Assembly (NCBI GenBank): GCA_012845835.1
Contig: JABAKD010000028.1
Location: 8,559,632-8,623,631, forward strand
Length of the DNA: 64,000 nt
Source of the DNA: Undaria pinnatifida
Taxonomy: Eukaryota; Sar; Phaeophyceae; Laminariales; Alariaceae
Direction: 5' to 3'
Shown here: piece after piece, positions 7,502-47,615 of the stretch
How positions within the stretch are numbered: position 1 is the stretch's first letter
How the letters are laid out: each line of letters begins with the position of its first letter
Made by a program: the position numbers and the translations under genes
The notes under the pieces: model-generated
The model's input: the letters and a program-made list of their open reading frames with translations, nothing else
What the model was told of the DNA's origin: nothing
The model's database searches: none

Positions 7502-10452
7502 TTACTGGCGGAGGCAGTAAAACAAGCCCAACGGCTTCAACCCGTTGAAGTCGGTCGCATCCGCGCCCGCCCGGGTGCCCGTGTCAGGGAAAAACAGCCA
7601 GTCCCGCCCCGGTTTCATGTTGTCGGGGAGTGGTGTCACCCGTGAGACGCAATCCAATCCATCGCAGGTCGGGCCCCACACCGTGCACAGAGGGTACTCG
7701 CGAGGAACGGCGGCACCGGCACCGGGAGAACCGGCGTCCGTCGAAGTCGTGCCGTTAGCAGCGTCCTTCTCTTCGTGGTCGGGTTCGCTTGGAAACGCGG
7801 GGGACAACGGCGACGGCTGCATCTGCACGCCACGGAGAAGGGCTCCGCTTAGAGACCCGTAGCATCCGTCGTCGATGTAGTACATCGCACCTCTGGTGTC
7901 GGCGTCAATGGCGACGCCATCGCCTCTAGAAATATCGCTGCCATCGCTACCACCACCGCTACCACCAACGCTACCGCTGCCGCTAACGCTACCGCTACTG
8001 CTAACATTAACTTCACCGCTATCACTAACTATACCGGTACTGCTACCGCCGCCCGCTTTCGCAGCCCGCACAATCGATGAATCAGCGACGGGCGCTACAT
8101 CCTTGCGCCCGATAATGGAAGCGACCGTTGACCACACCCCGCCCGCAACGAGATGCGCAGTAGCATCGGCCGAGACGGTGAATGGCTTACCACCGGCGCC
8201 ACCCACGCTCGCGGCGCTCCCATTGTTCGACCCTGCCTTGGGAAGGTACCGACACAGCACAGACTTTAGCGCGGTAAGAGGTTCTCCGCGTGCGCCTCCC
8301 TCCCCCAGGCCTGTCACGTGCAGGCGTTGAAAAACGAACGGAGCACGGGGCCGCGTCGTTCTAGATATGTTGCCCCTTTCGCCCTTGGTTTTACTGTTCG
8401 CATCCTCGACGATGGTTGCCCTGGCCAGCGGCGTCGCGATCGCGGTGTCCACTGTGGCAGTGGTGGCAGCAGCGGCGGCACAGCGCGCCATCTCAAAGGC
8501 AGCGGCAATTGCGGCGTCAATGTCTGCGAGAAGGGTAACCGAAGCCACGGCCTCCCCGGGAGCCGCGCTATCATCCAGAGGAGGGTAGGAACCGGCACAG
8601 GGGGGGGAATACACCTCCTCCGCCACGGCATGTGAGTCATCCCAACAAGCAGGTCCCACGTCAACCGAGAAGCCGACGATTGGAATGGGACCGTCAAGCC
8701 AGGCCGACGTCGCCGCCGCGGCCTTAACGATCTCCACCACAGCTTCGGCGGTCGCACCGTACGCCCCTTCCAGAGGTCTCGAGCACGCGGGCGCGGTCGA
8801 ACCTCCGTCGGTTGGAGCGGTTGGGGAGCAGTCAGGAACTTGACGCGCCTGCCGAAGTGGCGTGGCCAGTCTGATCAAGACGTCGGCTGGGCCCCCGTCC
8901 GGGTTGCAACAAGACATCGCGTTTTTGCTTTCGCGGGAGGAGGCGGTTTCAGACGAGTCTCCCCTGCGCCTTGAAGCCCAAACTCGACGCAGCTCGTCAG
9001 CAGAATCAACCTGGACATCATCACGAACAAGAAACACGTGAGGACAGATAGCGTGCGAATAGCATTAGCGACTTTCAAAGTTGGCGGTCGTGACGGAACG
9101 ACTTAAGTCTGCCTTAAGACAACGAGGAAGGGGCGGGGGTGGAGGGGGGGGCATTGTCCGGGCCAGCGCCGGTGGAGTCGCTGCCATGGACAGGGAGGGC
9201 AGAAAAAGGGGTCACATTCTCAACGCTATCGGGTATGAGGGAAACTGTCCTCGCATCTCCGACGTTGCAGCCTTAAACATTTTGAACAGCGACAGGAAGA
9301 CGAGGTACTCCTTTAGCTCAGCGTCATCTTAACCCGCAAAGCAACCGTCTGGTTTTCCCCGTAAAAAAAACACTTTCCACGCTAACAAACGCAGTCAAAA
9401 CTACTACTTGGTAAACAAAAAACGCGCCATCAACTGTGACGCTCACCTCGTAGACCTGAACCCCAGCCGCAGACGACGTTCGCAGCAAGGCGGGAGGGCG
9501 GCACACGTGGGTGTCGAGCAGCTTCGGAGAGAGGGCAGAACCCGTGCTGACGCAGCGAGCGGCCACCACGGCGGCCTTGACGTCGTTGACGGACGAACAC
9601 GACAATCGGACGCCTAACGCGTGGGCGACCCCAAGCACGATTTCGTCGCGGTTATCGCCGACACGAAAGCAGGGTTCCACCTGTATAACAAAACAGGGCG
9701 TCTTGTTTTAGTTTATTAGACGCGGCGACAGGGTAAAGGACGATAGGACCGATCGCCTCGTCTACACCCTTTTCAAGAACTGCAAAAGTAGCCCACGCTA
9801 ATTTCCAAGCAGCTTGTATCTAAAATGCTCGGGTGCCGTCCTAAAGGGAGATAAGATCAACTTTCAGGGGCGAACGATAGATAGGGTTAGCTAATCGTCT
9901 GAGTAGACTTCGCAAAGATTATCCACCTCGCCCGCACAATTGTAGAAAACGTACTCACATGCACTACAAACAAAAAGCAACATCAACCTACGCATGCACC
10001 TTGGGGAGGCAGTGGCGCCACTCCACGCAGTTGCGCACGACGCCATGCAGGTCCACAAGGTGGAAGCCGCGCACGGGAATCTTGGCGGTAAGGGGCGAGG
10101 CGGACCGTCGGACGAGCGCGTCCTCCACAGACGTCTTGACATCGACGGTCATGCTAACGCCGCCGTGCCGCTCCTTAGCCTCTTTCACCTCTTCTTTCTC
10201 GTCCGCCCCGCCCCGCCCCGTCGCCCCGCCGGTCGCCAGGAGGACCTCAACTTTGCCCGACGACGCGGCCGGTGAGGAGGAGGCGTTGAGAGTGACCACA
10301 GGGCACCTCCCCTCGATCACCGCACGGGCCGTGAGCTTGGTGCAAAAGCTCGGCGGGGCGGAGGCGGAGGCCGGGGCGGCGACAACGACGTGGTAACCGT
10401 CATAAACACCACTAGCAATACCATTGGTGAAGGCCGAAGCGCCGCCGTGCAT
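7502..10452 (-). CDS. Ornithine decarboxylase-like pseudoenzyme (fold type III, antizyme-inhibitor-like)
   Basis: Three exons on the minus strand, 10452-10000, 9680-9447 and 9010-7502, all joined in phase 0 with AAG|GTGCAT, GAG|GTGAGC donors and TACAG, TCCAG acceptors, give about 731 residues. Exon 1 ends with the first beta-strand pattern of ODC (FHLVDLHGVVRN...W...LPK). Exon 2 carries the segment PCFRVGDNR, which aligns with PFYAVKCND of animal ODC. The last exon ends with YYIDDG.YGS (about residue 606) and WGPTCDGLD (about 674-682), the ODC C-terminal substrate loop. Compared with human ODC, the Schiff-base Lys69 position is Gly, Asp88 is Ser, His197 is Asp, the Gly235-237 loop and the EPGR phosphate motif are lost and Tyr389 is missing, while Asp332, Cys360 and Asp361 remain. 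The protein is long (human ODC 461) because of Ser/Gly/Ala-rich insertions. I infer a non-catalytic paralogue that might bind antizyme or active ODC. The start is uncertain: an in-frame ATG at 10500 is an alternative. Confidence 0.8.
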
Positions 10453-10509
10453 TCGCTGCCTACGAAGCACCGTCTGCAGCATAAGCGTAAGCATAAGCAT
10501 TCGCAGAAG

Positions 10510-11920
10510 CACAGCCAGGCCAAGAGGGTTAGGGAAGGGGTGAGGACGACGGCAAGGGCGGCGGATGGGCGGGCGGGCGGGTGGTGGGAGGGAAGGGGGG
10601 GGAACGGGGAGGGGTAGTTTAGTTTGGGTGGATGAGGGCGACGAAAAAAAAGCGGTTTGCACTGTTCTACGACCCTTGCATGACCACCAAAAAAAAGGTA
10701 AGCTGGTCATTATTATCTCGGCTGCTGCTATAACTACACACGGCACTTTTCAGAGCCTTCTTCCGTCGTTGAAAGTTTCAGTGTGGAGTTGACAAATTTA
10801 AGCGAAACGCGAAAATTGACGAGCAGTGAGTTGTTTGAAGAGCTCTACCCGCGAAAAAAATGAAGGCAAGCGCAGGGGGGATTTAAGGGACAATACCCAA
10901 AGGCGACGGCTAGTCCAGAAGACAGCTGAGGGTTAAACCTCCTACGAGTTAGGCTGGAATGTAAAACAAAAGTGATGGGACAAAAAAAAACAACAACGGC
11001 ATGCTATCCCTTTTATTGGGAGCATCCATGCTACTGTGCCCTTTATTTACTCCCGTAGTGTTACGTGATGTTTGCTCGTTGGGATACCGTATCCACCATA
11101 TGCACCAAAGGACCGCGCGGGGGGATATATACTACCGCAATCTCACCATTTAATGCTAAAAATCAGGCATGGTTCGTTACGGCAAAAAAAACGTATTCTA
11201 TGGGAAATTACGGAGTTTCAGCATTTAGGATTTACGTACGCATAATTACAAAAAAAAAACGGGAAGGCAGACGTAAATCCTCAGGAGGGGATGAATCGAA
11301 TCCACCCCGTCACAATAAAAATATAAAAAATGATGTGCTAAAACCGCCGCATTTTCTTCCCGGGGCAAAACCAAAAAAACACAGGCACACCTGACTCTGT
11401 TTCACATATTAAATTAAGGCAAAAAAGCAGTTACGTACGGCTGACTTTGATATGGGTAATTGCCCGTAACTCTAACGTATCATACATACCTGCTAAAATT
11501 AACGTATTTGCAGGCGACGGATTCTCACCATGGGTACGCCGGCCAATCGGCTAACCTTGCGACGCAGCAGCTGCTCCCGCCACGCAATCTGGGCCTCGGG
11601 AGACATGGTGTCGCTCAGGCTGCCCCACGAAGGAAGGAGGGTGCTGGCGTCTTTTCCCGAGAAAGATTCTCCTCGCTGCAGCGACAGGGCGGGGGGAAAA
11701 AAAAACACACACAATCATTGAAAAAAGGTCAATCTTCTCCGGCCTTCAGCAAGGGCGTAGAGAAAAAGAAGAAAAAAAACACACACACGTATGTGTGATG
11801 TGCGAAAAAGAGGTCACGTTCGTCAAGTCAGGGCAACTCTGGTCTTTGCTTCGACTCCGCGCTTTAGCAAGGGCGCGGAGAAAAAAAAAATGTACACAAA
11901 TTACAAATGAGATATCTCTT
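10510..11920. other. Stretch without a recognisable gene upstream of the ODC-like gene
   Basis: This contains the presumed minus-strand promoter and 5' region of the ODC-like gene, with GC-rich runs (10555-10615) and poly-A tracts. The short plus frames at 11065-11394 and 11460-11798 are Lys-rich from A-runs and are not convincing as genes. Confidence 0.35.
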
Positions 11921-11924
11921 TTTA

Positions 11925-12090
11925 ATCCTCCGGCGGATGGGGAAAAATAAAGCTTAATCTCGCCACACTTTCACGTATTTTCACACACACACCTCGTGCG
12001 CCGATTTAACTCAATTGCATTCGCAACCCCGCGTTAGCTGGCGCGTGCTTCTGTTCCCTTGATAGCGATAGCGCGAACTGTCTTTTACAG
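11925..12090 (+). repeat. Dispersed repeat with CCTCCGGCGGATGGG head, copy 1
   Basis: The sequence begins with TCCTCCGGCGGATGGG, continues with an A-rich spacer and CGCCACACTTTC, then a block with TTTAACTCAAT and GATAGCGATAGCGCGA. The same order recurs at 25795-25930 in the same orientation, and inverted at about 28990-29062 and 62650-62745. Confidence 0.75.
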
Positions 12091-12730
12091 ATATCATATT
12101 ACTAGTACACTGGTGCGTTCACAGCCGCCAGGTTTTGGTCCCCCTCAAAAAACGGCTTTTATACTTTCAATGCACTTCTGTATGTAGTGCTATGCTGTAC
12201 AACCAACCACGGTAGGATTGCACCTGAAATACACCTGGTATTACATCTGGTATGCCTTCTTCGTCTCGTGTGGCGTTTTTAGTTTTTAGGTGGGAAAGCG
12301 TAGCTTTTCCCGGACGAATTTGTATTTCATTGTCGTTTTTTGGATCTTCCTAGCGCTCCAGAACCTTTGTGTATCCACGGACTCTAGATTTGAGAAGAGT
12401 TTACAACATCAACAGCGACAAAAAATTAATTATCTTGCTCGCTTGAGGAGCTCCGTACCCTGTACCACAGCAACCAAAAAGTGACTTGGAGAAACAACGA
12501 AAGTGCAAATCGATGGGTGGCCAAGCAACAAAAAATGTTGATGTTCCAACCAAATCTAAAAATAACTAAAAATACACTGGAGCAGGCTGAGATCGAAAAG
12601 TTAATCAAAAACTCAATTTTTCAAGCTGCGTTGGTTACTTCGAGCGCGTATTACTTTATTATTATTGCGTAAAACCGTGAGTTGAGTTGAGGGGGCCCGT
12701 CAGACAAATGCCACAGCAGCATGTAGTAGC
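12091..12730. other. Stretch without a recognisable gene
   Basis: AT-rich sequence with only short open frames (12290-12484 and 12481-12672 plus) that show no motif. No RNA gene or repeat boundary was identified. Confidence 0.35.
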
Positions 12731-12734
12731 ACGG

Positions 12735-13105
12735 TATAGTACAGTAGTAGAGTAGAGTGGCAGATTCGAGTCGAGTCGAGTAAAGTGGAGTAGAGCAGAG
12801 TAGAGCAGAGGAGAGGAGAGTAGAGAAGAGTAGGGTGAAATAAAGTAGAGAGTAGAGTAGAGTAGAGTAGAGTAGAGTAGAGTGGAGTAGAGTAGGGGAG
12901 GGGAGGGTAGAGTAGAGTAGAGTAGAGTAGAGTAGTGCAGAGTAGAATAGAGTAGAGTAGAGTATAGTAGAGTAGAGTAGAGGAGAGGAGAGGAGAGTAG
13001 AGTAGAATAGAGTAGGGTAGAGTAGAGTAGAGTAGAGAGTAACGTAGAGTAGTATAACGTAGAGTAGAGTAGAGTAGAGTAGAGTAGAGTAGAGTAGAGT
13101 TAGTA
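12735..13105. repeat. AGAGT pentanucleotide microsatellite
   Basis: About 370 bp of nearly uninterrupted GAGTA units with scattered point changes and occasional slippage (for example TAACGTAGAG near 13045). The open frame across it on the minus strand, with Tyr-Ser-Thr-Leu-Leu repeats, is a consequence of the repeat. Confidence 0.95.
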
Positions 13106-13317
13106 CAATACAGTACAGCAGTTACGTGTTTGCGATGTGTGCATACCTCTGTTTCGTATGTAGTGACCACAAAGCTGGTCTCCGTATAGGATGAGACGGC
13201 GGCATGATCGGCATGGGTGTTGAGTGTGCTGGATGTCGATGGGCGGAAATAACAGTTTAATGCGAAGAACACACACATACCTCTAGTCCATAGTGTTATA
13301 TTTATATTTAGGTAAGA

Positions 13318-13620
13318 GCTCATAAGCTAGCCCATCCATCGTGCATAGCTCACGCGTTCAAAACATGCGCAGATGAGCTATCGCCTATAGCTCAAGCATT
13401 GAAAACGTGTGCGGATCATGTAGCTCCTATACTCATCCAGGGCCAAATGAGCTAGCTCATGCAGCTCGTATAGCTCATCCTGGGCAAACATGTGCCAATG
13501 AGCTATCGGCTATAGCTCACACTTCAAAAACATGTGCAGATGAGCTACCTTCTGTAGCCGAAGCCGGGAAAACATGTGCAGCTCATGTAGCTCCCGTAGC
13601 TCACCGGTGAGCTGCCGTCG
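13318..13620 (-). repeat. 42-bp hairpin minisatellite, array 1 (inverted orientation)
   Basis: Several degenerate copies of a 42-bp unit whose core reads GAGCTATCGCCTATAGCTC and is nearly self-complementary, followed by a spacer like AAACATGTGCAGAT. The orientation is opposite to the arrays at 22865-23415 and 24890-25530. On the plus strand the copies keep an open frame encoding repeats related to KTCADELPSVAEAG. Confidence 0.85.
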
Positions 13621-13984
13621 AAAAGAAAATTTAGATGCCAACTTGGAAATTATGCCATTCTGGATATTATGCCAATTTGGAAATGTTTTCCCTATATTTA
13701 TTCGTTCAAGCTCTACATATGCCAAGATCCAAGAATAGCTCGGGCGTAAACCGCCCAAAATACAAAAAAAATCGCACTTCTCGCTTGTCTCGCTCAGCGT
13801 CTATCCGCGTTCTCGTCGAGGTGCAGAACGGATAAGGCAGGGCGAGGGGCGTTGGAGCCTCCTCCTGAAGACGGCGCTCGAACGAAGCGATCTGACCGAT
13901 AAATTCCAGTTCCGAGAATCCTATACTGAGGCCGAGACGAAAAAAACTCCTGACCAAATTCCTGCCCCCTCAGAAAAAAGAATA

Positions 13985-14260
13985 ATTATATACATATATA
14001 TTCCTATATTACCGCTCAAATTTTCGCGATCTATGGACATGCAATGGAGATGCGCACGAAGCGGCAGCACCGCAGAAATATGGGGTATGGTGGCGTGACA
14101 AATGTCTCGCTCCGATCAAAGAATCAAGTTCTACAACAGCAGCCACACGCGCACAGAGTAGCAGGCTGCTGCTGCGAGGGGGCTGGACCGCTGCTGGGCT
14201 GCATGATCGTAGCGTGGTGCCATCAGCGTCTATATCCAGTGCTGTTTGCTTTTAGAGTCA
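13985..14260 (+). repeat. Repeat family B, left copy
   Basis: Starts near TTCCTATATTACCGC and runs through GCGATCTATGGACATGCAA, the AGCGGCAGCAC block and a CTGCTG-rich part to GTAGCGTGGTG. A second copy lies at 20976-21200 directly outside the copia element, so this repeat is older than and separate from that element's LTR. Confidence 0.75.
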
Positions 14261-14569
14261 AGAAGAATTACGCTAGATTATTCTGATCGTCGTCCGATTC
14301 GAAATCGTCCCCTCGTGGAGACGGAAGCAACTCGCCTCAGCATAGCGAGGACTCGCCACGCGCACACACATGATGTATCCTACTACTGCTGCTGTGCGGC
14401 AGGGTTGCACACGTAGCGTTGTGCTGTCCTCATGTTGTCTGATGCCTGTTATCTGTGGTGTAAGCAAAATCTCCCGACACAAAACATTACCCCTCTGGTA
14501 TGTACGTAAAGATACTGTCTCTTTGGACGTAAATGTAAGGATGGGTTGGTATATAAATTACTATACAAA

Positions 14570-14574
14570 GGTTC
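14570..14574. repeat. Target-site duplication GGTTC, left copy
   Basis: Five bases immediately outside the left LTR, identical to 20975-20979 outside the right LTR. Five base pairs is the usual duplication size for copia integrases. Confidence 0.85.
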
Positions 14575-14842
14575 TGCTGATAGATTTCTAAAGGTGTACA
14601 CGAAGCTGGCGCGGGAAGGCGTGGTGGTGACCCAAGACGGTGACACAGAACTCTCTCTTATATTATCCAGCCGTCGAGTGACAGCTCGTGGCGATCAATG
14701 CAAGGAAGCAATCAGCAAAATAAACCTCCCATCCTTCCGCTGAGTGTCCCCTTATACCTTATACATAGATCCCTTTATCAATACGTATAACTCCGTCATA
14801 TAAAATGGATCCTAACCGCCGTGTTCATGAGGACAACCAACA
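14575..14842 (-). repeat. 3' LTR of the copia element
   Basis: 268 bp, closely similar to 20709-20974, with TGCTG at its plus-strand left end (one change from TGTTG) and CAACA at the right end. It directly follows the target-site copy GGTTC. Confidence 0.9.
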
Positions 14843-15172
14843 TCCCCCCTCCTTATTATACACGGCGAACATACTGATATCCCCCCTGCTCTGTTTATGA
14901 CAAGGCACGACGTCCCAGGGTCGAGTGACAGCTCGTGGCATTTAATGCAAGGAAGCAATCAGCAAAATAAACCTCCCATTTCTTCCGCTGAGTGTCCCCT
15001 TATACCTTATACATAGATCCCTTTATCAATACGTAGAACTCCCTCATATAAAATACTGGTATATCCTAACCGCCGTGTTCATGAGGACAACCAATATCCC
15101 CCCTCCTTATTATACACGGCGAACAAACTGATATCCCCCCTGCTCTGTATATGACAAGGCACGACATCGCAG
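14674..15172. repeat. Tandem duplication of LTR tail plus adjacent internal DNA
   Basis: A block of about 247 bp (14674-14920) comprising the rest of the LTR, the polypurine tract and about 80 bp of internal sequence is repeated at 14921-15172 with a few differences. The second copy therefore contains an internal, mutated LTR end (CAATA in place of CAACA) followed by a second polypurine tract. Confidence 0.8.
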
Positions 15173-15189
15173 GGTTGATATATCGCAAT

Positions 15190-15700
15190 ATCATATTCAA
15201 CGCAAATCAACCTCAAGAACAAATTCGAACACCAAAAACGCAATATGAAAACTCAACTCGTCTACAAAAAAATCAAAACTCTCAAATCAAAATCCTCAAA
15301 TTCTCAAACACAAAAACAACAGCCATGCAAACATCAAACACTCTCGGAAACAATTGCCAGGAAAACGGCACCATCCTCGAAATAGCCACAGAAAACGGGA
15401 TTTTTCTTCGGATTTATGACTCAAATAAACTCTCTGATTATCCCCGATATTCTTGAAATAGCAGTATCAGTACAGGACCTAGCTGAACCGGGAAAAACCC
15501 AACTCTTTATTTATACGAAAATGAAAATGTCCACAGAAACTCGATCTAGTCGTACTCCGCACGCACGACGATGAACCACACGTAGCGGCGGGACATTTTG
15601 CACTACTCAAAAACTCAGTTTCGAATAAACAAATATCTCTCAGAAAAACTGACGATTAAAATCCCTACTCTGAAATCAAGATAAAACTACCCTCCATCCG
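15190..15700. other. A+C-rich non-coding 3' region of the copia element
   Basis: Between the end of the pol relic and the duplicated LTR tail the plus strand is dominated by A and C with recurring CTCAAA-like words. The deleted copia at 54650-54780 has the same character in the corresponding position. Confidence 0.5.
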
Positions 15701-15709
15701 AAAAGCGCA

Positions 15710-18700
15710 TCAAATGTTCATCGGAACATCGCGGCGATAGCAAAAAGCCGTGTAGTCGGGCGGCTTTGTCAAGACGTCTGCATGCTTATCATCCGACTCG
15801 ACACTGGTAATAACGAACTCCCCCTTACAAATAAATTCCGGCAAAAAGTGGCGTCGCACGTCAATGTGCTTCGATTTCGACGTGCACACTGGGTTTTGTG
15901 CCAGGTTCTTCGCCCCTTCATTGTCCTCAAAAACCGTAATGCACATCGTACCAAACCCCGGAAAAATAATACTCCACATGTACCGCAAGAACATCGCCTC
16001 CTTAATGGTGCTTGCCAGTGCTACGTACTCGGCTCCAGTGGTCGAGAGCGTGATTTTTGGGTTCTCGAAAGCCAGCACACACATGAGCTCGCAAATATTA
16101 TAGAACCACCTGAAACTGACCTCCTGTCAGCGGCTTTACTAGCATAGTCAGCATCTGCAAACGCTACCAGCTCAAGTCCACTACACCCTTCTGGCATGTA
16201 ATACCGAAACCACTCGTAGAAAATACATACTCCAAAATACCAATCGCTGTCCTCCAGTGTACCTCCCTAGGCTGGTTCGCGTACCTTGCTACCGCTCTTA
16301 CCGCGTATGCAATATTCGGTCGCGTTTGGTTCGCAAGCCACATCAAACATCCTACCAACTCGCGAAAATGTCAATCACCCACAGGTCCATTCTTGTCGAA
16401 CTCCTCGAGCTTCAGACCACTTCAAAGCGGGGTACTCCTCCAATAACTTACATTAAACCTTGCCGCGGTGTTTTCAGCAAAAGCTTGTTGCGAAATCGTC
16501 AAAGTACCAGTATCCCAATCCCTCGAAGAACGACAACCAGCATACCACCGCAACTCGCCCAGATTGCTGATCGGAACAAGGCGGTTCAGATTTTCACACA
16601 ACTGACAAGCCCTACTGCAAAAGTATTATCCACGTGCATCACTGTTACTATGGAAAACAGAGCCAATCTCGACCAATCTCAAGAATTTTCATGTGGGTGA
16701 TAAGATAGTTATGCCAGGACCTCGACGCTAGTTTTAAGCCGTAGAGACTGCGATTCAACCTGACTATTTTACCCGACACTTCGCCACAACTGCGGGGTAG
16801 TCGCATAAAAACATCCTCTTCCAGACTTGACTGAACGAGTGCTTGTTCGGCATCAAAATGACACAAATCCAAACCCAACTCACACACAATAGCACCCAAC
16901 AAACGAAAACAAGACGCAGCAGGCGTCGGGGCAAAAGTCTAAAAAAAAACAATACCTTCACGCTGCTTAAAATCTCGCGCCAGCAGCCTCGCCTTCGCTC
17001 GAACCACATAGCCATGCTCGTTGGGCTGCCAGGCGAACACCCATTTCGCCGAGATGACGTTCAGTCCGTCTGGTCGCTACATCTCCCCAAACATCCCCGC
17101 GCTCGCCAGTCCACGGTACTCATTTTCCATCGCCTGCCTCCAAACAGCCGAATACTCATCCGCACACGCTTCAGCATACGAGTTCGGCGTTGAAAGCTCG
17201 CTCACCGGGCGTGTGGGAAGAGGGGGATTATCGTGCGGCGGGGCTTGGTAATAAAGCACGTGACTTATGCTTTCTCTCGCTGCCATTAACGACAGCAGCC
17301 CATGCTCCGCAGCCTCTCGGTGCCGCCTCGTCCTGCCTAGCTGCACATCATCACCATCCGGGTCCGCCGCAGCCTCTCGGTGTCGCACTGTCTTCCCCCT
17401 GGTCCTGCCCCGCTGCACACCGTCATCCTTCGGGGCCCGGATTGTAACTATCCAGTTCCCGGGCAGCACGCCTTGAAACTGTGGCTGCAGTGGCTGTTGC
17501 GGCGGTCACGACGGTGACGACGGCGGCGGCGGCGGTGACGGTGGCGGTGGCAGCGGCGGTGACGATGACGGCGGCTGTAGCGGCGACGGTGACGGCGGTG
17601 GCGGTGGCGGCGGCAGGGGCAGCGGTGGTGGTGACGGCGGTTGCGGCGGCAACCGCGAGAACGGTGGCGGTGGCTCGGACCATGCTCTGGGATCTCCCAG
17701 AGGCTCCGGCGTACCCGGGGACGGCGGCGGCGACGGTGGCGGTGGAGAGATCTTCTCCTCCGGAGGCAGTACCCCCACAAACGATTTCCTCGGGTGTTCC
17801 CATGCAACGTCGCGGGAGTATGACGTACGCCCATACATCAGCATAATTTTGCAACAATCTGCCGCGTGCTTGTTTCCGCCATTCAAGTAGAAACAAGACT
17901 CTGACGTGGGCTTCGACTTTAGGGTCCTCCTTACGTGGTGAAAACCCGGGTTCACGAACGGGAGGAGTCGCGCAAACGACGGTCTCCGGTGGAACTTTCG
18001 GTATGGCGAGTGCATGTCCGGCTTGTCCCTGACCCTTGCCGTCATGTTGATAACGCCACTGGCGTACTTACACGCCTCAGCCCAGAGGGGCTGCGTCGGC
18101 GGCATCTTCGCGTCGCAAACAAATGGGGGGCCTCCAGGCGGGACGCCATAGCAAGCGCGAGCGTCATGGCTATTCGAAGCTCAACCACACCGTCGTGTTT
18201 CGGGGAGTTGACAGGCGTGTACTCGCGGCGGATCCCACGCGCGTTGAGTAACGACACGAACAATGGCCTAGAAAATCCAGTGCCGTTGTCCGAGCGAATG
18301 CACTCGACGATGGACGAGGCACCGCTGGCCTTAAAGTCGGTCATAAAACCAGCGAAGGCCATCGGGACGTCGGACTTCCGTTTCAAGAAATACGGCCATC
18401 CCATCCGCGGGTAGTCGTCGACGAGCATCATCAAGTACTGCGCACCGCCGGCAGACGTATGCTGTTGCCCCGATAGATCCATGAAGAGACACTCCAGAGA
18501 CCTGGTGGAGCGGCAATCGGTTGTCTACCGCCATCCTCCTCCCCTTCGCCTCGGAACACCCAGCACACGGAACCAACTCCCCAAAAACTTTAATTCCCAT
18601 CTGCCGCGCCGTTTCTCGAAGGGCATCAGCATGGGAATGTGCGAGGGAAACATTATAGTCGTTAATATTAATTATCCGCACGTTTCCGGGAGACAATACG

Positions 18701-20635
18701 GCGGCAGCAATCGGGGTCTCAACTACTCTAGTGGCCTCTATATAAGACCCAGCGTCCCTGCGCAAGAAGGACAAAACTCCATCCAATGGACTCCTTCAGC
18801 ATCGAGCGAGACGGAGCATTTCGGCATGACGGCATGGAGCGAGAACAGATTAAATTGCACACCAGGTACATAAGCTACGTCTAAGAGCTTAACCTGAACA
18901 TCTCCCTGCTTGCAATGCATTATCATCGGTATTTTACAAAGCAATGCACCCGCAGCGACCTCATGTCGCCTACTACCAAAATACTCCTACCAGGAGGAGG
19001 GGGGTTACAATCTACCATGTCAACGGGGTTACCAGTTACATGAAAGGTAGCCCCCGAATCAGCTACCCACTGCTCTCTCCCATTCCCCCCAAAAATACCG
19101 CTACGACCATTCTTGTCTTTTTGTGTAAAGTGCGCGGTAAGAAGATGCGGGTTGAACGTAGGCGCACAACTGCCGTCGTTCTTCTGTTCGTCGGAATTGT
19201 TCGAGGAGGGCTGAGGTGGGGGAGCTACGGTTGAGGTGTGCCCACCACTGCCGGGGGGTGGCTCTTGTACCCAGCCACCACCGTAGTATATGGGGTGGGG
19301 GTATTGTGGAGCTGTAAAAGGGACCACCACGTTCATGTGTGCTGGGGAAATCGGGCACTCCGCTACGTAGTGACGCGGCCGGTGGCATCTGTAACATACC
19401 CCCTTCTGTCCCCGTGGTGCAGGATTAGGTGGGGGACCCCAGCCGTCGGATTTCCCACCGGCGGCGGGGGCATAGGCGGCATAACCCCTGGCGGTGGGTC
19501 GGTAGGTACCCAACCCATTGCAGGAACCTGTTCCCCCGTCCCAAATGAATTTGGGCCAGAGTTGTCCCAATAATTTTGCTTTGGGTGACCGTGCTGCTGC
19601 TGCTGCTGCTGCTTGTGCCTCCCCCCTCTCTTGTTCCTCCCTCGACTACCTGAACCCGTGCTTGCTCCACCGGCAGGCTGAACGGCGCCAGCGTACAAGA
19701 CATACGGATCTACCCCCACCTTTACTCCCAACGCCTTAGTCACCATCTCCTTTTCAAACTTATCATTTACATATGCGTCGCGGATAACCTCGTCGATTTC
19801 GGAACGAGGGATTGACCGGCGAGAAAGAATCGATTTGCTCTGGATTGTGTACAATGATGAAAGGTTGGTGACGATGTGCCTGTTCACCTCTTCTACACTT
19901 TTTCACAACCAAGCATGGCCAATTCATCGTCCACCTTATCAATTCTACCGAGGGACACAAGGGGGTCCTCTCCCTCCTCCATGTATATTGCCTCAAATTA
20001 TCTATTCAGCCTGTGGGTTGCGGCTAGGGTTCTCGGCATGTATGAGTAGTAGTTCTCTAGTTCCTGCCATGCGCCACTTGACGACTTGGCTTGCTGCATG
20101 CGCAATTCTGCAACATGGAATATCCAGTCATGGAGTCCATCAACAATCCATACACCACACGCGCATCAATGATCTCTTTCGGTGTGTGTCTGTTCCAATT
20201 ATTCCGGAGACACAGGGTTACCGGTTGCCTTGAGAACGTATAGACAACCAATCGACGAAAAACACGCCTGAAACTTGCTGCGTCACATTCCGAAGTGCGC
20301 CTATCAATTTTGGGGAGTTTTAGCTGAGTCAAATTCGGACGAGACAGAGAAAGTTGCGACGTGCCTGGTTGGGTTGCCAGATGTTGGCACAGCAGGAGAC
20401 GATGTAGAATTCCTCGCTGTTGCTTGTCCGCTCCTCCCCCCACCGGCCCCCCTAGCCACCTCAGCGTTCAGCGTGTCCCTCTCGGCGCGCAGCTTCTTCT
20501 CCTACATTTTCCTTCGCAGAACCGTGATCTCCTGTTTCATCTCTTGTATCCCTCTCTAGCTCTGCTCGCTCTCTCTCTGCTCTCTCTCTATGCTAACACG
20601 CTCGCCTCAATGTTTTGACCATCGTGATCTGACAT
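15710..20635 (-). pseudogene. Copia gag-pol polyprotein, disabled
   Basis: The ATG at 20635 is followed by an early in-frame stop after 15 codons, then gag-like sequence with a Gln-run. A CX2CX4HX4C zinc knuckle lies at 19355-19396 and the protease motif VADSGAT at about 19043-19066. The GAG-pre-integrase finger lies near 18560-18700. The integrase core (18042-18482) has the exact DD35E spacing from SDNGTGF to VVELR. A Pro-rich linker (about 17480-17760) precedes the reverse transcriptase, whose blocks include RAKARLLARDF, SLYGLK and LTISQQAF; one TAG interrupts it at 16939-16941. The catalytic YVDD box has become HVDN (16625-16636). RNase H and the C-terminal KHIDVRRHF and LTKPP segments end at 15710. 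Several frame breaks confirm decay. Confidence 0.9.
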
Positions 20636-20708
20636 GTTTGGCCTTTTCCCACCTCTATAGGCTGGCCTTGGCTGCGCTTACCAATATAAGTCAACGGGCT
20701 CACTAGTG

Positions 20709-20974
20709 TGTTGATAGATCTCTAAAGGTGTACACGTAGCTGGCGCGGGAAAGCGTGGTGGCGACTTAAGACGGTGACAAAGAACTCTCTCTTATATCAT
20801 CCAGCCGTCGAGTGACAGCGCGCGGCGATAAATGCAAGAAAGCAATCGGCGAATAAATCTCCCATCCTTCCGCTGAGTGTCTCCTTATACCTTATACATG
20901 AATCCCTTATCAATACGTGGAACTCCTTCATATAAAATGGATCCTAACCGCCGTGTATATGAGAACAACCAACA
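20709..20974 (-). repeat. 5' LTR of the copia element
   Basis: 266 bp with perfect TGTTG...CAACA ends, matching 14575-14842. In the minus-strand direction it precedes gag. The internal sequence next to it begins CACTAGTGAGCCCG on the minus strand and offers no standard TGG primer site, though GGTAAGCGCAGCC lies about 30 bases in. Confidence 0.9.
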
Positions 20975-20975
20975 G

Positions 20976-21200
20976 GTTCCTATATTACCGCCCAGGTTGG
21001 CGCGATCTATGGACATGCAATTGAGATGCGCACGAAGCGGCAGCACAGCAGAAATATGGGGTATGGTGGGGTGACAAATGGCACGCTCCGATCAAAGAAT
21101 CAGCTACTACAAGAGCAGCCACACGCGCATAGAGCTGCAGGCTTGTGCTGCTGGGGGGCTGGACTGCTGTTGGGCGGCAGAACGGTAGCGTGGTGCTCTG
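20976..21200 (+). repeat. Repeat family B, right copy
   Basis: Matches 13985-14260 from TTCCTATATTACCGCC through the CTGCTG-rich part to GTAGCGTGGTGCT. It begins immediately at the target-site copy, so the copia element inserted at the start of this repeat. Confidence 0.75.
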
Positions 21201-21684
21201 TGCAAAAAGAGGGAAATGTACGTGTACCCTTTAGCATAAAAACCGGTTTGTATCCAATTCTCACGTGCGTACACGGGGATAGGGGATGCAGAAGCCCAAT
21301 CCCCGGGGATGTTGCGGAAACCGGGGGATTTGCCTTACCCGTGCCCAAGGCCAAAAAGTTTAAAAGGCTTGCCACGCGCGACACGCTGCACGGGTCACGC
21401 CCAAACCCTCAGGTAACGTGAACGCATGGGTCGAATTGTGCCCACCCCATCTGACGTTTAGGATAAAGGCGCGAGCACGAAGAGGTGTGCCCGAAGAAGA
21501 AAAAATGACAGTTATACGTATACGTATGGGCTCTCTTTTTCAATAGTATTTTTAAGTCGATCGATTGTAATGGGCACACTATTTGACCCCTTTGAATCTT
21601 ACTGTGCTACGCGCTCTCGCTCCCCTGTGCCCCAAGCGACCGTCTCTGGCAAGCGCGACAGCGCTTCTGTCGCTGCTCACGGGC

Positions 21685-21776
21685 TATCCTAAAATTTCAA
21701 ATTTTCAATCCTTCAGGCCAACACAAACAATGAATTATTTATCGTTGTTCCAGAATCTACTAAATAATCCTCCACT
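21685..21776 (+). repeat. 92-bp direct repeat, copy 1
   Basis: Runs from TATCCTAAAATTTC to ATAATCCTCCACT and recurs at 22413-22506 with few changes. The 636 bp between them holds no coding signal. The pair could be the ends of a small element, but no TG...CA termini, target duplication or primer site are visible. Confidence 0.7.
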
Positions 21777-22412
21777 CTGTTTTGTCTTTCGAATTGGATT
21801 GTTGTTTTTCTTTTTCTCTGAGACGCGGGAGGGAGTTTCCGCTGGCGTAACCTACCGACGGCACTGACGGTATCCACAGGTTTTCACCTATATCGCTACT
21901 ACTCCATGTTCATAGCGCTATTACTCCGTGTAATAGTTTAATTACTTCCTCCCCTGGCCCCCTCGCCTGGGGTCTACAATACGGCTTCGAATTACCGAAT
22001 TCCCCAAATGGTCCCCGATCATTCAAACTCCTCACCGTAATTTTGCTGCAGACAAAATAAATCATACTTCGTAATAACTCCTTCCCCTCACCTTCGAAAG
22101 AAAAGAGGTGGGCGGGCGGGAGAAACTACTGCAATTCCTGGTAGATTAGCGTGAAATCACCAGACTGTAACGTCTTCTCGATCACGACGTTAGATGGTCA
22201 GCTGAGGTATCGCGCCTTTTGCGTGGGACAAAGAAGTTAGCTCGTGAGAATAATGATCTCATGGGGTTGTTCTCCATGTTATTATCGTTTGTCCAATACC
22301 TGGGCTGACATAATCCATTCCGTTAATTCAACGACCTGCCTGAACCCCTCAGTTTTACGGAAGTTTGGTTTGATTGTCTTCTCGGAGCTATACAATATTT
22401 CTTGTCATGATC

Positions 22413-22506
22413 TATCCTAGAATTTCAACTCTTCAATCCTTCAGGCCAACACAAACAACGGATTATTCATCGTCTTTTTCCAGAATCTACTAAATAATCC
22501 TCCACT
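22413..22506 (+). repeat. 92-bp direct repeat, copy 2
   Basis: Same as 21685-21776, including CCTTCAGGCCAACACAAAC and CAGAATCTACTAAATAATCC. It is followed directly by different sequence containing the GACACCGGTGTCG palindrome. Confidence 0.7.
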
Positions 22507-22589
22507 TTACGCCATGCCATACCAGACGTGGGAGCGTCTGGTCGAGCCGGCATGTGTGCCGTGAACGTGCCGCGGTGTCGTAAACAAGG

Positions 22590-22862
22590 TATTTGCGACA
22601 CCGGTGTCGTGAAAAAGGCCTGCTTTAGGCTTATTTACAATACCGGTCTGATGGTGCTGCTGGTGCACCAGGATACGGCGTATCTCGCCCATTACTGGGC
22701 CGTTTCGTTTACTGGGCCGTTTCGGGTACACGGTAGCTTCAATCATAGCCCTACACCATGTCAAACCAGCCGTGACGGAATCTAGGCGATCGGGGGTCAG
22801 CGTCGTGAACGTTCCGCACGTTATTTGCGACACTGGTCTGAATATTTCACACCTCGGACAGA
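22590..22862 (+). repeat. Repeat containing GACACCGGTGTC palindrome, copy 1
   Basis: GACACCGGTGTCG is followed by blocks related to CTGGTGCACCAGG, TACTGGGCCGTTTCG and CAGCCGTGA. The same blocks, in a different arrangement, occur at 25541-25768 next to another 42-bp array, which suggests that array and flank moved or expanded together. Confidence 0.55.
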
Positions 22863-22864
22863 TC

Positions 22865-23415
22865 AGCTCACCGTAGCTCGAGCTAGCTCTTTTCGGAGCT
22901 TGCTCACCCGTGAGCTACGTGAGCTACATGAGCTGCACATGTTTTGCCCGGCTTGAGCTATAGGCGATAGCTCATCTTCACAAGTTTCGAAGGCTTGAGC
23001 TATAGGCGATAGCTCGTCTGCCCGTGTTTCCAAACCTTGAGCTATAGGAGCTACATGAGCTAGCCCATCTGCCCCCGAGATGAGCTATAGGAGCTACATG
23101 AGCTACACATGTTTCCCCCGGCTTGAGCTATAGGCGGTAGCTCATCTGCACATGTTTCCCCCGGCTTGAGCTATAGGCGATAGCGCATCTGCACATGTTT
23201 TCAAAGGTTGAGCTATAGGCGATAGCTCACCTGCACATGTTTTCAAAGCCTGAGCTATAGGCGATAGCTCATCTGCACATGTCTTCAAGGCCTAAGCTAA
23301 AATAGGCGATAGCTCATCTGCACATGTTTCGAAGGCTTGAGCTATAGGCGATAGCTCATCTGCACACGTTTTCAAGGCTTGAGCTATAGGGGATAGATGA
23401 GCTTGCTCACGAGCT
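22865..23415 (+). repeat. 42-bp hairpin minisatellite, array 2
   Basis: About 12 units of GAGCTATAGGCGATAGCTC plus a spacer such as ATCTGCACATGTTTCGAAGG, with variant units reading GGAGCTACATGAGCTA. Each core can fold on itself. Unit length is 42 bp when complete. Confidence 0.9.
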
Positions 23416-23580
23416 GTATAAGTGACCAATACAAGTACGCATAATAGAAAGACATCAACACAAACAACCATGGACTATACTTTTACTTTTTGTACGTACC
23501 AAGGTACAGCAGTACCAGGGATGTGATTTATATGAGATCGGATCTGCTTCTGTTCTGAATATAATATACCTGACGAATAG

Positions 23581-24380
23581 GTCGACACACGGCAGAACTT
23601 GCTGTCAGCTGTCACCACACAAGAAGCGCTCGCACACAACACAACACTGACACCATACAGCAACACCCCTAGCATGCCCACGACCTGGGGCAGCAGCTCT
23701 AGCGGCGCTTCGGCCGTAGACCAGGCTGGCGGCGGGCAGCAAGCGGACCCATCGATGGATGTGGACCCCACCAACAACGCCATCGATGTGGATGAAGACA
23801 ACGATCAAACCGAGGCTGAAAACAAGGTGGGTGGTTCGGAGGGTGTGATTTTGTCCCCCTAGACCATGATGCTGCTGTTCGAGCTGCATCATCCAATCTG
23901 TATCTGTATGTCTCTCTGGAGTAGTAGTAGTGTAGTTGAAGGGTAAGGGTCTGTACATGTATGTGGCGAGCTGTAGCTGTACGGGGTTTCATTACTCGTG
24001 CAGGTGTTTGTGTTTGTATACCGTACTCGCACGAGTACAGCAGGAACGATGACAGTACCAGTAACAGTTTGTTGTTTGTTGATGTTATTATGCTTCTCTC
24101 ATAATACAGATACGTTGTGCATGATGTGTGTACGATATGCCTCGCTTGTTCCGCATTCTAACGCGTGCTGTGCATCTTCTCACGCTGTGCTTACCAACAG
24201 GAGGCGAAGGAGACAGCCATGCGTGACATACCAACACCAATTGGGTTTAGGTGGTGGCCCTTTCTCCGGGCGAAGAGAAGGATGACGACGCCTGCGACGA
24301 GTACGAAGGGGAAAGCTCAAGCTTCACGTAGACGCCTTGAGGATAAATGGGGGCAGCGGCGGATCTTTTGTGTTTTGTGA
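23581..24380 (+). CDS. Hypothetical acidic protein, two possible exons, unrecognised
   Basis: Exon 23581-23826 is preceded by AATAG and followed by AAG|GTGGGT; exon 24201-24380 is preceded by ACCAACAG and ends at TGA. Both are in phase 0 and join to about 141 residues. The first exon is Ser/Thr-rich then strongly acidic (MDVDPTN, DVDEDNDQTE); the second is basic (RRRLEDKWGQRR). There is no start codon in exon 1 upstream of Met residues in the middle, so an earlier exon or a chance frame must be assumed. No family is recognised. Confidence 0.28.
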
Positions 24381-24566
24381 TGAGAGTTCATCTGTTGTCT
24401 GCTTGTTTTTTTGGCGATGTAGGTGTTTATCGCTTTTTGTTTCTGTCTCTCTGTCTCTTCCTATTCTTGCACCTTGTGGTAGGCTGCAGCCACGCAAGCC
24501 GTGTTTAAGGAACGGTAACGGTGTGTTCGGGATTCAGATTATACTGTGATTCAATATAGCCTTATT

Positions 24567-24600
24567 AATGGGTGGTGGGTGGGTGGGTGGGCGGGTTGGT
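24567..24600 (+). other. G-quadruplex-capable G-run cluster
   Basis: Six or more GGG runs separated by one or two bases (GGGTGGTGGGTGGGTGGG...) satisfy the simple G3N1-7 pattern. It lies in DNA without a confident gene. Confidence 0.5.
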
Positions 24601-24889
24601 TTTCGCTGGCGTTGCAGCTAAATCACTAGTAGTAGCCATATTAATCGTGCTCATGTAGTTTTTATGAGTAAAGTATAAGTATAAGTATGCGAATAAATGC
24701 TAATAATAACATCAATATAATATTAATATTGATACCAGTACCCTGGTAAGTCTTAATGCTGTCCTGTCGCTCGTACTGTCGTTGAAATTTCATATGCATG
24801 GTAAGCTGTACAACCCATATTATTCCTATACATTCGCACGTGTCGCGGAGGGTGGGCTTTTTCAGCTACTCATCTTACATGCATGTGTT

Positions 24890-25530
24890 GCCGAGAAAGA
24901 GCTACGATGAGCTGCGTACATGAGCTATGATAACGTTCTCCGGGGGTGAGCTATAGGCGATAGCTGACCTGCACATGTTTTCCCCGATTGAGCTATAGCA
25001 GTAGCTGATCTGCACATGTTTCGAAGGCTTGAGCTATAGGCGGTAGCTCATCTGCACTTGTTTTGAAGGCTTGAGCTATAGGCGATAGCTCATCTGCACA
25101 TGTTTCGAAGGCTTGAGCTATAGGCGGTAGCTCATCTGCCCATGTTTTGAAGGCTTGAGCTATAGGCGATAGCTCATCTGCACACATTTGCCCAGGCTGA
25201 GCTATAGGCGATGGCTCATCTGCACACAATTGCCCAGGCTGAGCTACAGGAGCCACATGAGCTAGCTCATCCGTCCCCGGGATGAGCTATAGGAGCTTCG
25301 TGAGCTGCACATGTTTTCCCCGGCTTGAGCTATAGGCGGTAGCTCATCTGCATATGTTTCGAAGGCTTGAGCTATAGGCGATAGCTCATCTGCCCATGTT
25401 TCCAAAGCTTGAGCTATAGGAGCTACATGAGCTACACATGTTTGCCCCGGCTTGAGCTATAGGCGGTAGCTCACCTGCACATGTTTTCAAAGTTTGAGCT
25501 ATACATGACAGATGAGCTAGCTCATGAGCT
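24890..25530 (+). repeat. 42-bp hairpin minisatellite, array 3
   Basis: About 14 units of the same repeat as at 22865-23415 and in the same orientation. The minus strand from 25256 to 24993 is open, encoding a 14-residue repeat of the form SPIAQAFETCADEL, because the period is 14 codons. Confidence 0.9.
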
Positions 25531-25540
25531 GTCCGGGGTG

Positions 25541-25768
25541 TGGAATATTTTGCCGGTGCACCAGGGTGCGAAGTATTTCGTCGAGTACTGGGTCGTTTTC
25601 GGCACAGGATAGCTTCCGCGATAGCTCTTCACCGTGTCAAAACAGCCGTGAGAGTTCCGAGGTGGTCCGGGCGTGTGGCGCAGACAAGGCGCGGTGTCGA
25701 AAATAAGAGCTTATTTACGACACCGGTGTCGCGAATAAGGAACTACGACACCGGTGTCAAAAATAACA
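25541..25768 (+). repeat. Repeat containing GACACCGGTGTC palindrome, copy 2
   Basis: Contains GGTGCACCAGGGTGCG, GTACTGGGTCGTTTTCGG, AACAGCCGTGAGAG and two copies of ACGACACCGGTGTCG/C. Shares these blocks with 22590-22862. Confidence 0.55.
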
Positions 25769-25794
25769 TGTAGTAAATAACATTACCCTTTTTG

Positions 25795-25930
25795 AAAACC
25801 TCCGGCGGATGGGTAAATATAAACCTAAAGCTCACCACACTTCCCACGCATTTCGTACACGTGCGTCAATTTAACTCAATCGCATTCGTAATCCAGCGTT
25901 AGCTGTCCTTCAGTTCCCGTGATAGCGATA
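25795..25930 (+). repeat. Dispersed repeat with CCTCCGGCGGATGGG head, copy 2
   Basis: Same order of blocks as 11925-12090: CTCCGGCGGATGGGTAAA, CACCACACTTCC, TTTAACTCAATCGCATTCG and GATAGCGATAGCGCGAG. Confidence 0.75.
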
Positions 25931-25975
25931 GCGCGAGCTGTCTCTAGCGGCGGTCCCCGTTACTACTCCCGGAGC

Positions 25976-26375
25976 GCAAGCTGCCGTTGTATACGGATGC
26001 TCAAGTATGTCGACCCGACCTGACCCTTGGGGGTCAGGTGCGGTGGAGATAGCCACCCGGAACGGCATGTACTGATTATTCTTCCCCTTTTCGGCTTGCG
26101 ACACCCCCAGGCATATCAAATTTCAAGCCAACTAGCAACCAGCTCCGGAAGCAAAGGGAAATCTTAATCCCAATACCAGGGTATTGCAGCGCACGCTGCC
26201 GTTGTATACGGATGCGCAAGTATGCCGACCCGACGTGACGCCTGGGTCAGGTGCGGTGGAGACAGACACCCGGAGTGGCATGTGCTCACTATTCTTCCCC
26301 TTTTCAGCTTGCGACACCCCCAGGCATATCAAGTATCAAGCCAACTATTATTAGCAATCAGCTCCAGAAGCAATG
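25976..26375 (+). repeat. Tandem pair of about 180-bp repeats, period 215 bp
   Basis: The copy at 25976-26155 begins CTGCCGTTGTATACGGATGC and passes through GTCAGGTGCGGTGGAGA, TTCTTCCCCTTTTC and CCCCCAGGCATATCAA. It is repeated at 26191-26375 with small changes. Short minus-strand frames across both copies start with the same MICLGVSQAEKGKN peptide but end quickly, so coding is unlikely. Confidence 0.75.
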
Positions 26376-26916
26376 GGAGGGTATGTGTACCTACAGGTAC
26401 AAATCAACCGTCGAAAGCACCGTGCACGTCAACGAAACACACTCTAGTACAAACGCATCACCGGATCGTGCGTACGGTATCATGAATCATGAAACACACC
26501 TGTCGAGTAGTCAAAGCGTGACCTCCCAGGACCCGAGGGTGCGATGACCTTGGCCTCGGCTCGGCAGAGGGCGCGGCTTGCATCCATTTCCTGAGAAGGC
26601 TGTCGTATACCCTATTGCGTCGGGCGCGTATGTCGCTGTCTTGGTGTTGCTTGTCGGCATCGACGTAAGCAGCAGATTCTGGTACCGGCCGACACTGCTG
26701 CTGCGCTGCAGACGTGTTAGCCGCTTCACCGCCACTTCTGCGCGCCGATCCCGTGCCATTATTACAGATACACTCTTCCTCGACATTGCCAAGGCTTTTC
26801 TGTGGTTCCACCATCTCTCGGTGCGGTGCGGTTGGGTGCTAGGCGCTAAGCGAGGTCAATACCAGCAGGCCGCTACAGAGCTACAGGTTAGTTTGTCCTC
26901 CTCACAGGCTCACAGG

Positions 26917-47279: not shown

Positions 47280-47615
47280 AGAGCATAACTACAAGAAACG
47301 TTTAGTGGCCGTAGTGCTATCCCATTTATGAGCCGTTGCTTCACGAAAACAAAAACACGTACGTTGAATGTCGTGTAGTTGGTATAGCGGTGGTTCGAGC
47401 AGTTCCTCGTAGGTCGCAATATGCGGGCTGCTGAGGCAGGTGCAAATTTTAGAAGTCTTTATTTTCTAGCAATGCAGTCTAGTGAGTATGGAGCAAGTAT
47501 CATGTGCGTATACCCTACTCTCCTATCACATACATCGTATACCAGCAACGTTCCTCGCCGCATTGTTATACGGTAACCGGTACCTGGTTCGTTTCGGCCT
47601 CTCTGCAACGAACTG

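Follow-up and report, generated by a model that had tools for sequence, protein, structure and literature searches.

A proposed two-gene ornithine decarboxylase in the brown alga Undaria pinnatifida, with reciprocal losses of active-site residues

The textbook form of ornithine decarboxylase (ODC) is a homodimer whose subunits are arranged head-to-tail and share their active sites, each site being built from the pyridoxal phosphate (PLP) barrel of one subunit and the Cys360 loop of the other. The window described here, a stretch of 64,000 nucleotides from the brown alga Undaria pinnatifida (contig JABAKD010000028.1, positions 8,559,632 to 8,623,631), harbors on its reverse strand a gene for an ODC-fold protein. 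With a probability of about 0.7, we consider this gene to encode the beta subunit of an obligate alpha-beta ODC heterodimer with one composite active site. A partner gene with the opposite loss, alpha, is present in the same genome. Reciprocal loss of residues is observed in both genes and in their relatives, family membership is seen in homology and in the predicted folds of relatives, and no complete ODC was detected by the genome searches described below.

In the proposed mechanism, the two halves of the active site would have gone to separate genes in this lineage. Alpha would keep the PLP barrel and have lost its own Cys loop, and beta would keep the Cys loop together with Tyr323, Asp361, Asp364, and Phe397 and have lost the PLP chemistry of its barrel. 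A beta homodimer would be without the PLP lysine, and an alpha homodimer would be without the Cys loop, Asp361, and Phe397. The alpha-beta pair would have nearly every residue present at one site, giving one site that works, with alpha Lys69-PLP facing beta Cys360, and a second that is dead, and ODC activity would require both proteins. The heterodimer appears to be the likeliest arrangement because each homodimer is incomplete, the alpha-beta site is near-complete, and precedents exist in Entamoeba and planarians; its formation, activity, and substrate are what we infer from this pattern.

The window gene and the beta family

In the window protein, the barrel domain Orn_Arg_deC_N scores 33.2 bits (cut-off 23.4) and the domain of the C-terminal sheet 40.2 bits (cut-off 23), which by homology places the protein in the fold family of ODC and the group IV decarboxylases. 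Its top structural matches are chains of Trypanosoma brucei ODC, namely 2tod, a K69A mutant (E 3.1e-19), and 1f3t, the wild type (E 5.5e-19). The alignment with 1f3t places PFYAVKCND opposite PCFRVGDNR, so that the Schiff-base lysine, K69, is Gly, which confirms how the initial annotation had read the exon at 9680-9447. Alignment with human ODC bears out the accompanying claim that the His, the Gly loop, the EPGR motif, and the C-terminal Tyr are changed while YYIDDG and WGPTCDGLD remain: H197 is Asp, G235 is Thr, E274-P-G-R277 is D-A-T-A, and Y389 is Arg. It also reveals a further loss, D332 to Arg. The protein keeps YYIDDGCYGS, WGPTCDGLD (the C360/D361 loop), and FNGL (F397). Gly is also found at position 69 in the relatives from Scytosiphon (P0004) and Choristocarpus (P0014), and structure prediction gives an ODC fold for P0004. 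From the loss of K69, the window protein is expected to be without decarboxylase activity by itself.

By homology and frame, the gene is modeled as five exons and 892 codons, running from 26814 to 7502 on the reverse strand without a stop, with four GT-AG introns and every exon join in phase 0; homology and frame likewise underlie the assignment of the start codon and of the splice sites. An intact frame of 731 codons in three exons had been described, and the segments 10452-10000, 9680-9447, and 9010-7502 do join in phase 0 without a stop to give 731 residues, but the gene is longer. The open frame extends 5' of the Met of MHGG, two extra 5' exons are revealed by protein homology to P0004 and P0014, and the Met at 10452, previously taken as the start, is probably internal. 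The first exon (26500..26814, with the proposed start Met at 26814 and a donor GT at 26499) was placed from an in-phase open frame and from resemblance to the N-termini of P0004 and P0014, judged by eye and by sequence pattern (RRNRVYDSLLRKWMQAA..PRPRSSHPRVLGGHAL), unscored and without an E-value. The second (11529..11675, RGESFSG...SRLAGVPM) is matched in tblastn by P0004 (E 1.7e-14) and P0014 (E 5.6e-6), and is bordered by the acceptor CTGCAG and the donor GTGAGA. The third (10000..10473) holds the start of the barrel (GFHLVDLHGVVRNCVEWRHCLPK), and the fourth (9447..9680) holds the K69 block, PCFRVGDNR, with K69 replaced by Gly and D88 by Ser. The fifth (7502..9010) contains the degenerate remainder of the barrel (H197 to D, G235 to T, EPGR to DATA), the intact trans half (Y323, C360, D361, D364, and F397), and the stop. 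The proposed first intron (11676-26499) is about 14.8 kb long and has other open reading frames (ORFs) inside it, for example 18923-19645 on the reverse strand. No second copy of beta was found at E<=0.001 in the assembly of 511 Mb and 68 contigs. A contaminant origin of the window gene is rejected on the evidence of its introns and its brown-algal relatives.

With the whole protein as the query, 33 matches were obtained among 7992 candidates scored. The best 31 (P0001-P0031), none with an E-value above 1.7e-32, form one family, in which P0001 shares 99% identity with the fifth exon. Four species are named among the 31, Scytosiphon promiscuus, Choristocarpus tenellus, Sphacelaria rigidula, and Discosporangium mesarthrocarpum, all of which we take to be brown algae, and the 27 nameless proteins are termed brown by similarity only. 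The next match is a complete ODC, P0032. A second set begins with P0033, whose C-terminal part was then used as the query, and the best 120 of 161 matches (P0033-P0152) were retained. Readable names are attached to nine of these 120, Seminavis, Amphora, "Amphi" (a name cut off in the record), Epithemia, Chaetoceros, Odontella, Cylindrotheca, and Nitzschia (twice), presumably all diatoms. The precomputed barrel domain PF02784 is assigned to 8 of the 120 and PF00278 to all of them. The suggestion that the gene might be specific to one lineage was therefore too narrow, as the named members span brown algae and diatoms.

The window protein, P0001-P0031, and P0033-P0152 make up an alignment of 152 members. 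A list of residues for ODC activity was taken from PMC5518511, and their assignment to one or other subunit from PMC3543441, PMC3289617, and PMC11912471. The PLP-side set comprises K69, D88, E94, R154, K169, H197, S200, G235-237, E274, R277, D332, and Y389, and the partner-side set Y323, C360, D361, D364, and F397. On the partner side, Y323, C360, D364, and F397 are kept in 152 of 152 members and D361 in 151. Among the PLP-side residues, K69 has been replaced by Gly in the three brown proteins (3/3) whose models cover the position, the rows of P0017 and P0024 in that column being stray alignments from outside the barrel and not counted, and Lys persists in 7 of 115 in the second set. H197 is kept in 3/151, S200 in 24/151, K169 in 6/151, G235 in 0/152, R277 in 13/152, D88 in 0/120, D332 in 6/122, and Y389 in none of the 71 members with a letter there; E94 (11/119) and E274 (10/152) are otherwise Asp. 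The structural glycine G387 is mostly retained (30/32 and 93/120). With "kept" defined as at least 90%, the partner side scores 5/5 and the PLP side 0/14 (Fisher p 8.6e-5, or 0.0018 with R154 and G237 scored as kept); both values are descriptive only, assume that residues are independent, and ignore the way in which the second set was collected. Three brown proteins compared with 14 of the second set are 22.6% identical across the barrel and 44.6% identical across the C-terminal domain.

The alpha gene and the search for a complete ODC

When PF02784 was run over the same genome, four matches were obtained in three places, one of which is alpha, a multi-exon ODC gene on contig C22 (about 23858792-23864538, reverse strand). 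Alpha keeps AVKCN (K69), EKYGA (K169), SFHCGSGC (H197 and S200), LDIGGGFPG, AEPGRY (E274 and R277), and MGAYT (Y389). In place of the human YYVNDGVYGSF it has YYIGEGVDGCF, with D332 changed to Cys, and in place of WGPTCDGLD it has VMGPSGLVTD, both within the one exon that reaches the stop. The initial annotation had proposed looking for a second, catalytically complete ODC; alpha is another ODC gene and keeps the lysine, but it lacks C360. In a scan of the alpha protein by itself, the C-terminal domain, PF00278, reaches 23.5 bits (cut-off 23). Over 90% of its length, alpha shares 70% identity with a protein from Laminaria digitata, and an ODC fold is predicted for an alpha relative.

A homologue search with alpha gave 4232 matches among 7996 candidates scored, of which 120 were listed. 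Among these 120 are ten named ochrophyte alphas, from Laminaria digitata, Ectocarpus (four), Pylaiella, Scytosiphon, Hapterophycus, Chrysoparadoxa, and Seminavis. Position 360 is Gly in 10/10, F397 is present in 0/10, and Y323 is retained in Chrysoparadoxa. A larger set of 22, made up of the Undaria gene and 21 of the 120 matches listed, was picked by Gly or Trp at position 360, so that loss of C360 within it is not evidence. In this set, K69 is kept in 18/18 and R154, K169, H197, S200, the GGG loop, E274, R277, and Y389 in 22/22; F397 is found in 0/22, D361 in 1/21, and Y323 in 3/22. Between five brown alphas and 16 canonical ODCs, identity is 47.9% in the barrel and 28.0% in the C-terminal domain, in comparison to 54.1% and 50.9% among the canonical enzymes themselves, in counts that exclude human columns 298-312 and a canonical set that omits P0171 and P0172.

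Some other ODCs vary at the same positions. His, Asn, or Tyr is found at position 360 in P0171, which we take to be from Cyanophora, P0172, and P0202, with Asp361 and Phe397 kept, and position 332 is Leu in P0171, P0172, and the Galdieria protein P0191. Another Galdieria ODC, P0197, has both K69 and Cys360 and is publicly named "Antizyme inhibitor 2", which is likely a misannotation.

The ODC of Hondaea (P0268), presumably a thraustochytrid, is complete at all tested PLP-side and partner-side positions. When it is used as a query, its residues 50-110 (E 2.7e-7) and 179-285 (E 2.6e-15) match alpha and residues 365-454 (E 8.5e-10) match the window gene; the fourth match is a lysA gene on contig C45. 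At E<=0.001, PF00278 is confined to three places, namely the window gene, the lysA on C45, and a protein on contig C38. The pattern GPTCDxxD, which would miss a loop interrupted by an intron, occurs at five places in the 511 Mb, and only the one in the window lies in an ODC-like frame; the other four are ruled out as ODCs by their frames. The reversed pattern gave 19 matches against 5, so that matches of this kind are at chance level. No complete ODC, with both K69 and C360, was detected by PF02784, PF00278, GPTCDxxD, or the Hondaea query, although one could be hidden by introns, by gaps in the assembly, or by the limits of the candidate lists.

The two remaining places matched by PF02784 were rejected as ODCs. 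The best match (187940, contig C45) is a bacterial-type lysA at 449 bits against a cut-off of 298, on a contig of 210,798 bases where the ORFs beside lysA look bacterial by eye and which is probably bacterial contamination of the assembly. The C38 protein is lysA-related and falls below the same lysA cut-off of 298.

Counter-evidence, alternatives, and precedents

Several observations weigh against an obligate heterodimer with separate halves. In beta, R154 is retained in 115 of 150 members, and a single Gly persists from the GGG loop, aligned at 236 or 237 (at 237 in 124/145 in the 152-member alignment, where column 236 is nearly all gaps, and at 236 in another). The dead barrel also has conserved residues of its own, D197 (105/151), T235 (138/152), and D274 (142/152), hinting at some role for it. 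Seven second-set proteins still have Lys69 (P0064, P0085, P0091, P0103, P0106, P0109, named Cylindrotheca, and P0117), with H197, E274, and R277 changed and Y389 opposite a gap. In addition, the words used to collect the second set came from C-terminal motifs, so that motif conservation in this set is partly ascertainment; P0002-P0031 are less affected because each has between 15 and 109 five-letter words in common with the window protein outside the motifs. In alpha, D364 is retained (22/22), so that both partners have it, and the substrate-contact residue D332 is found in 0/22 and is Cys in 21/22, which means that the composite site departs in part from the standard one. Brown alphas and four diatom-like alphas (one named, Seminavis) are 46.7% identical in the barrel and 42.2% in the C-terminal domain; as these values are nearly even, the alpha C-terminal domain is still constrained and not free to drift, as would be expected if it were needed for folding or dimer contact. 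A gene with an agmatine deiminase-type domain (PF04371) is also present in the genome, and ODC may therefore not be the only route to putrescine. The heterodimer leaves unexplained the alpha Cys332, the beta D197, T235, and D274, and the seven Lys69 members without H197.

The alternative that survives best, which we nevertheless regard as unlikely, is that alpha is a self-sufficient homodimeric decarboxylase with no need of Cys360, perhaps using Cys332 or another substrate, and that beta has a separate role, such as inhibiting alpha by heterodimerizing or sensing ornithine. Alpha keeps every tested PLP-side residue save D332, and P0171 and P0172, which lie near the alpha clade in the tree, have His or Asn at 360 while keeping D361 and F397, suggesting that Cys360 is replaceable in the clade nearest to alpha. 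A precedent is mouse ODCrp, which keeps 20 listed residues yet is inactive and represses ODC (PMC5518511). Such an arrangement, however, gives no account of why beta retains exactly Y323, C360, D361, D364, and F397 when identity across its barrel has fallen to about 20%, or of why alpha has lost four of the same five partner-facing residues.

It is distinctly improbable that beta is an antizyme-inhibitor-like decoy or another non-catalytic regulator of polyamine synthesis. Animal antizyme inhibitors are likewise inactive homologues with the ODC fold, but beta keeps its partner-facing residues, a decoy has no need of the Cys loop, and the genome would be left without any detected complete ODC. 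No match to the ODC antizyme domain PF02100 was found in the assembly at E<=1, in a search that had no working positive control and from which introns could conceal a gene. It had been stated that antizyme inhibitors lose Cys360, but this is not general, as Lys and Cys are conserved except in a few (PMC3543441). Of the maintained non-catalytic role first proposed for the gene, what stands is a maintained pseudo-barrel ODC with brown-algal and diatom relatives; a simply non-catalytic or regulatory function is unsupported because the kept residues complete the site of the partner, and the only other ODC gene found is without most of them. Finally, a pseudogene or a wrong gene model is hardly credible, for although the catalytic residues of the barrel are lost and two 5' exons were placed by homology alone, the five GT-AG-bounded, phase 0 exons give a stop-free frame of 892 codons with 31 family matches that share strongly conserved motifs, and the pseudogene reading is rejected on the open frame and the conserved relatives.

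The proposed alpha-beta heterodimer has the two-domain fold in common with the eukaryotic ODC homodimer (group IV, fold type III), but the halves of the site are here in different genes, neither of which is apparently complete. Cross-species ODC heterodimers were reportedly obtained by Tobias and Kahana in 1993 and by Osterman in 1994. In Entamoeba, mixing K57A and C334A subunits restores about 29% of activity through a half-site (PMC3289617). In these hybrids, subunits dead at the positions of K69 and C360 share one working site, as proposed here; they are laboratory mutants, whereas in the alga evolution seems to have done likewise. Planarians have ODC5 (C360V) and ODC6 (K69S), for which a shared functional site has been discussed as a possibility (PMC5574924). 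The substitutions are complementary, as in the algal pair, but planarians also retain a complete ODC (ODC1/A), of which none was detected in the alga by the searches above, and the algal losses span many residues and two algal groups.

More distant parallels also exist. The PLP fold type of the serine palmitoyltransferase subunits LCB1 and LCB2 differs from that of ODC. This enzyme is a PLP-dependent heterodimer in which one of two homologous subunits is without the lysine and both are required (PMC6148460), although the reaction differs. In trypanosomatids, dead paralogues activate two enzymes of the polyamine pathway, AdoMetDC, through its prozyme, and deoxyhypusine synthase (PMC5201418, PMC3663545); the AdoMetDC prozyme relieves autoinhibition, whereas donation of active-site residues is proposed for the alga. 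Inactive ODC paralogues and mutant composite sites are thus already known, and no natural ODC split between two algal genes is described in the titles and abstract openings covered, to which subscription journals contribute little.

Ancestry, implications, and neighboring features

A broader proposal, which we hold only tentatively and find rather doubtful, is that brown algae and diatoms make putrescine by means of an obligate alpha-beta ODC whose genes differ in ancestry, the alpha barrel being related to the ODC of red algae (with a possible endosymbiont origin) and the beta Cys-loop subunit to that of the stramenopile host. The trees covered 49 sequences. In the full-alignment tree, alpha groups with Galdieria and P0171/P0172 (ultrafast bootstrap 86-93), and beta groups with P0032, P0216, and Hondaea, with support of 53, 91, and 86 going outward. 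Two results speak against separate ancestry. The barrel-only tree unites beta, the barrel of which has a very long branch, with Galdieria (86). The approximately unbiased test does not reject alpha and beta as sisters (p 0.21 for the full alignment, 0.063 for the C-terminal domain, and 0.43 for the barrel). Separate host (beta) and plastid (alpha) origins are thus suggested, not established.

If the alpha-beta heterodimer is real, it would represent a clean case of a homodimer becoming an obligate heterodimer, and some diatom and brown-algal proteins annotated as "ODC" would be half-enzymes; both Seminavis proteins, P0036 of the beta set and P0214, are publicly named ODC. ODC is a target of the drug difluoromethylornithine. 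Neither algal protein would be active alone, and the cysteine labeled by the drug would lie on the subunit without PLP. The arrangement would also bear on the supply of polyamines for diatom silica (PMC6356823) and for seaweed growth.

Elsewhere in the window, an ORF at 37248-38312 on the forward strand carries a proteasome/cyclosome repeat (PF01851, 32.6 bits) and is presumably part of a 26S proteasome Rpn1/Rpn2-like gene. A further forward-strand ORF, at 47577-48380, has an IQ calmodulin-binding motif that scores exactly at the Pfam cut-off, 20.3 bits.
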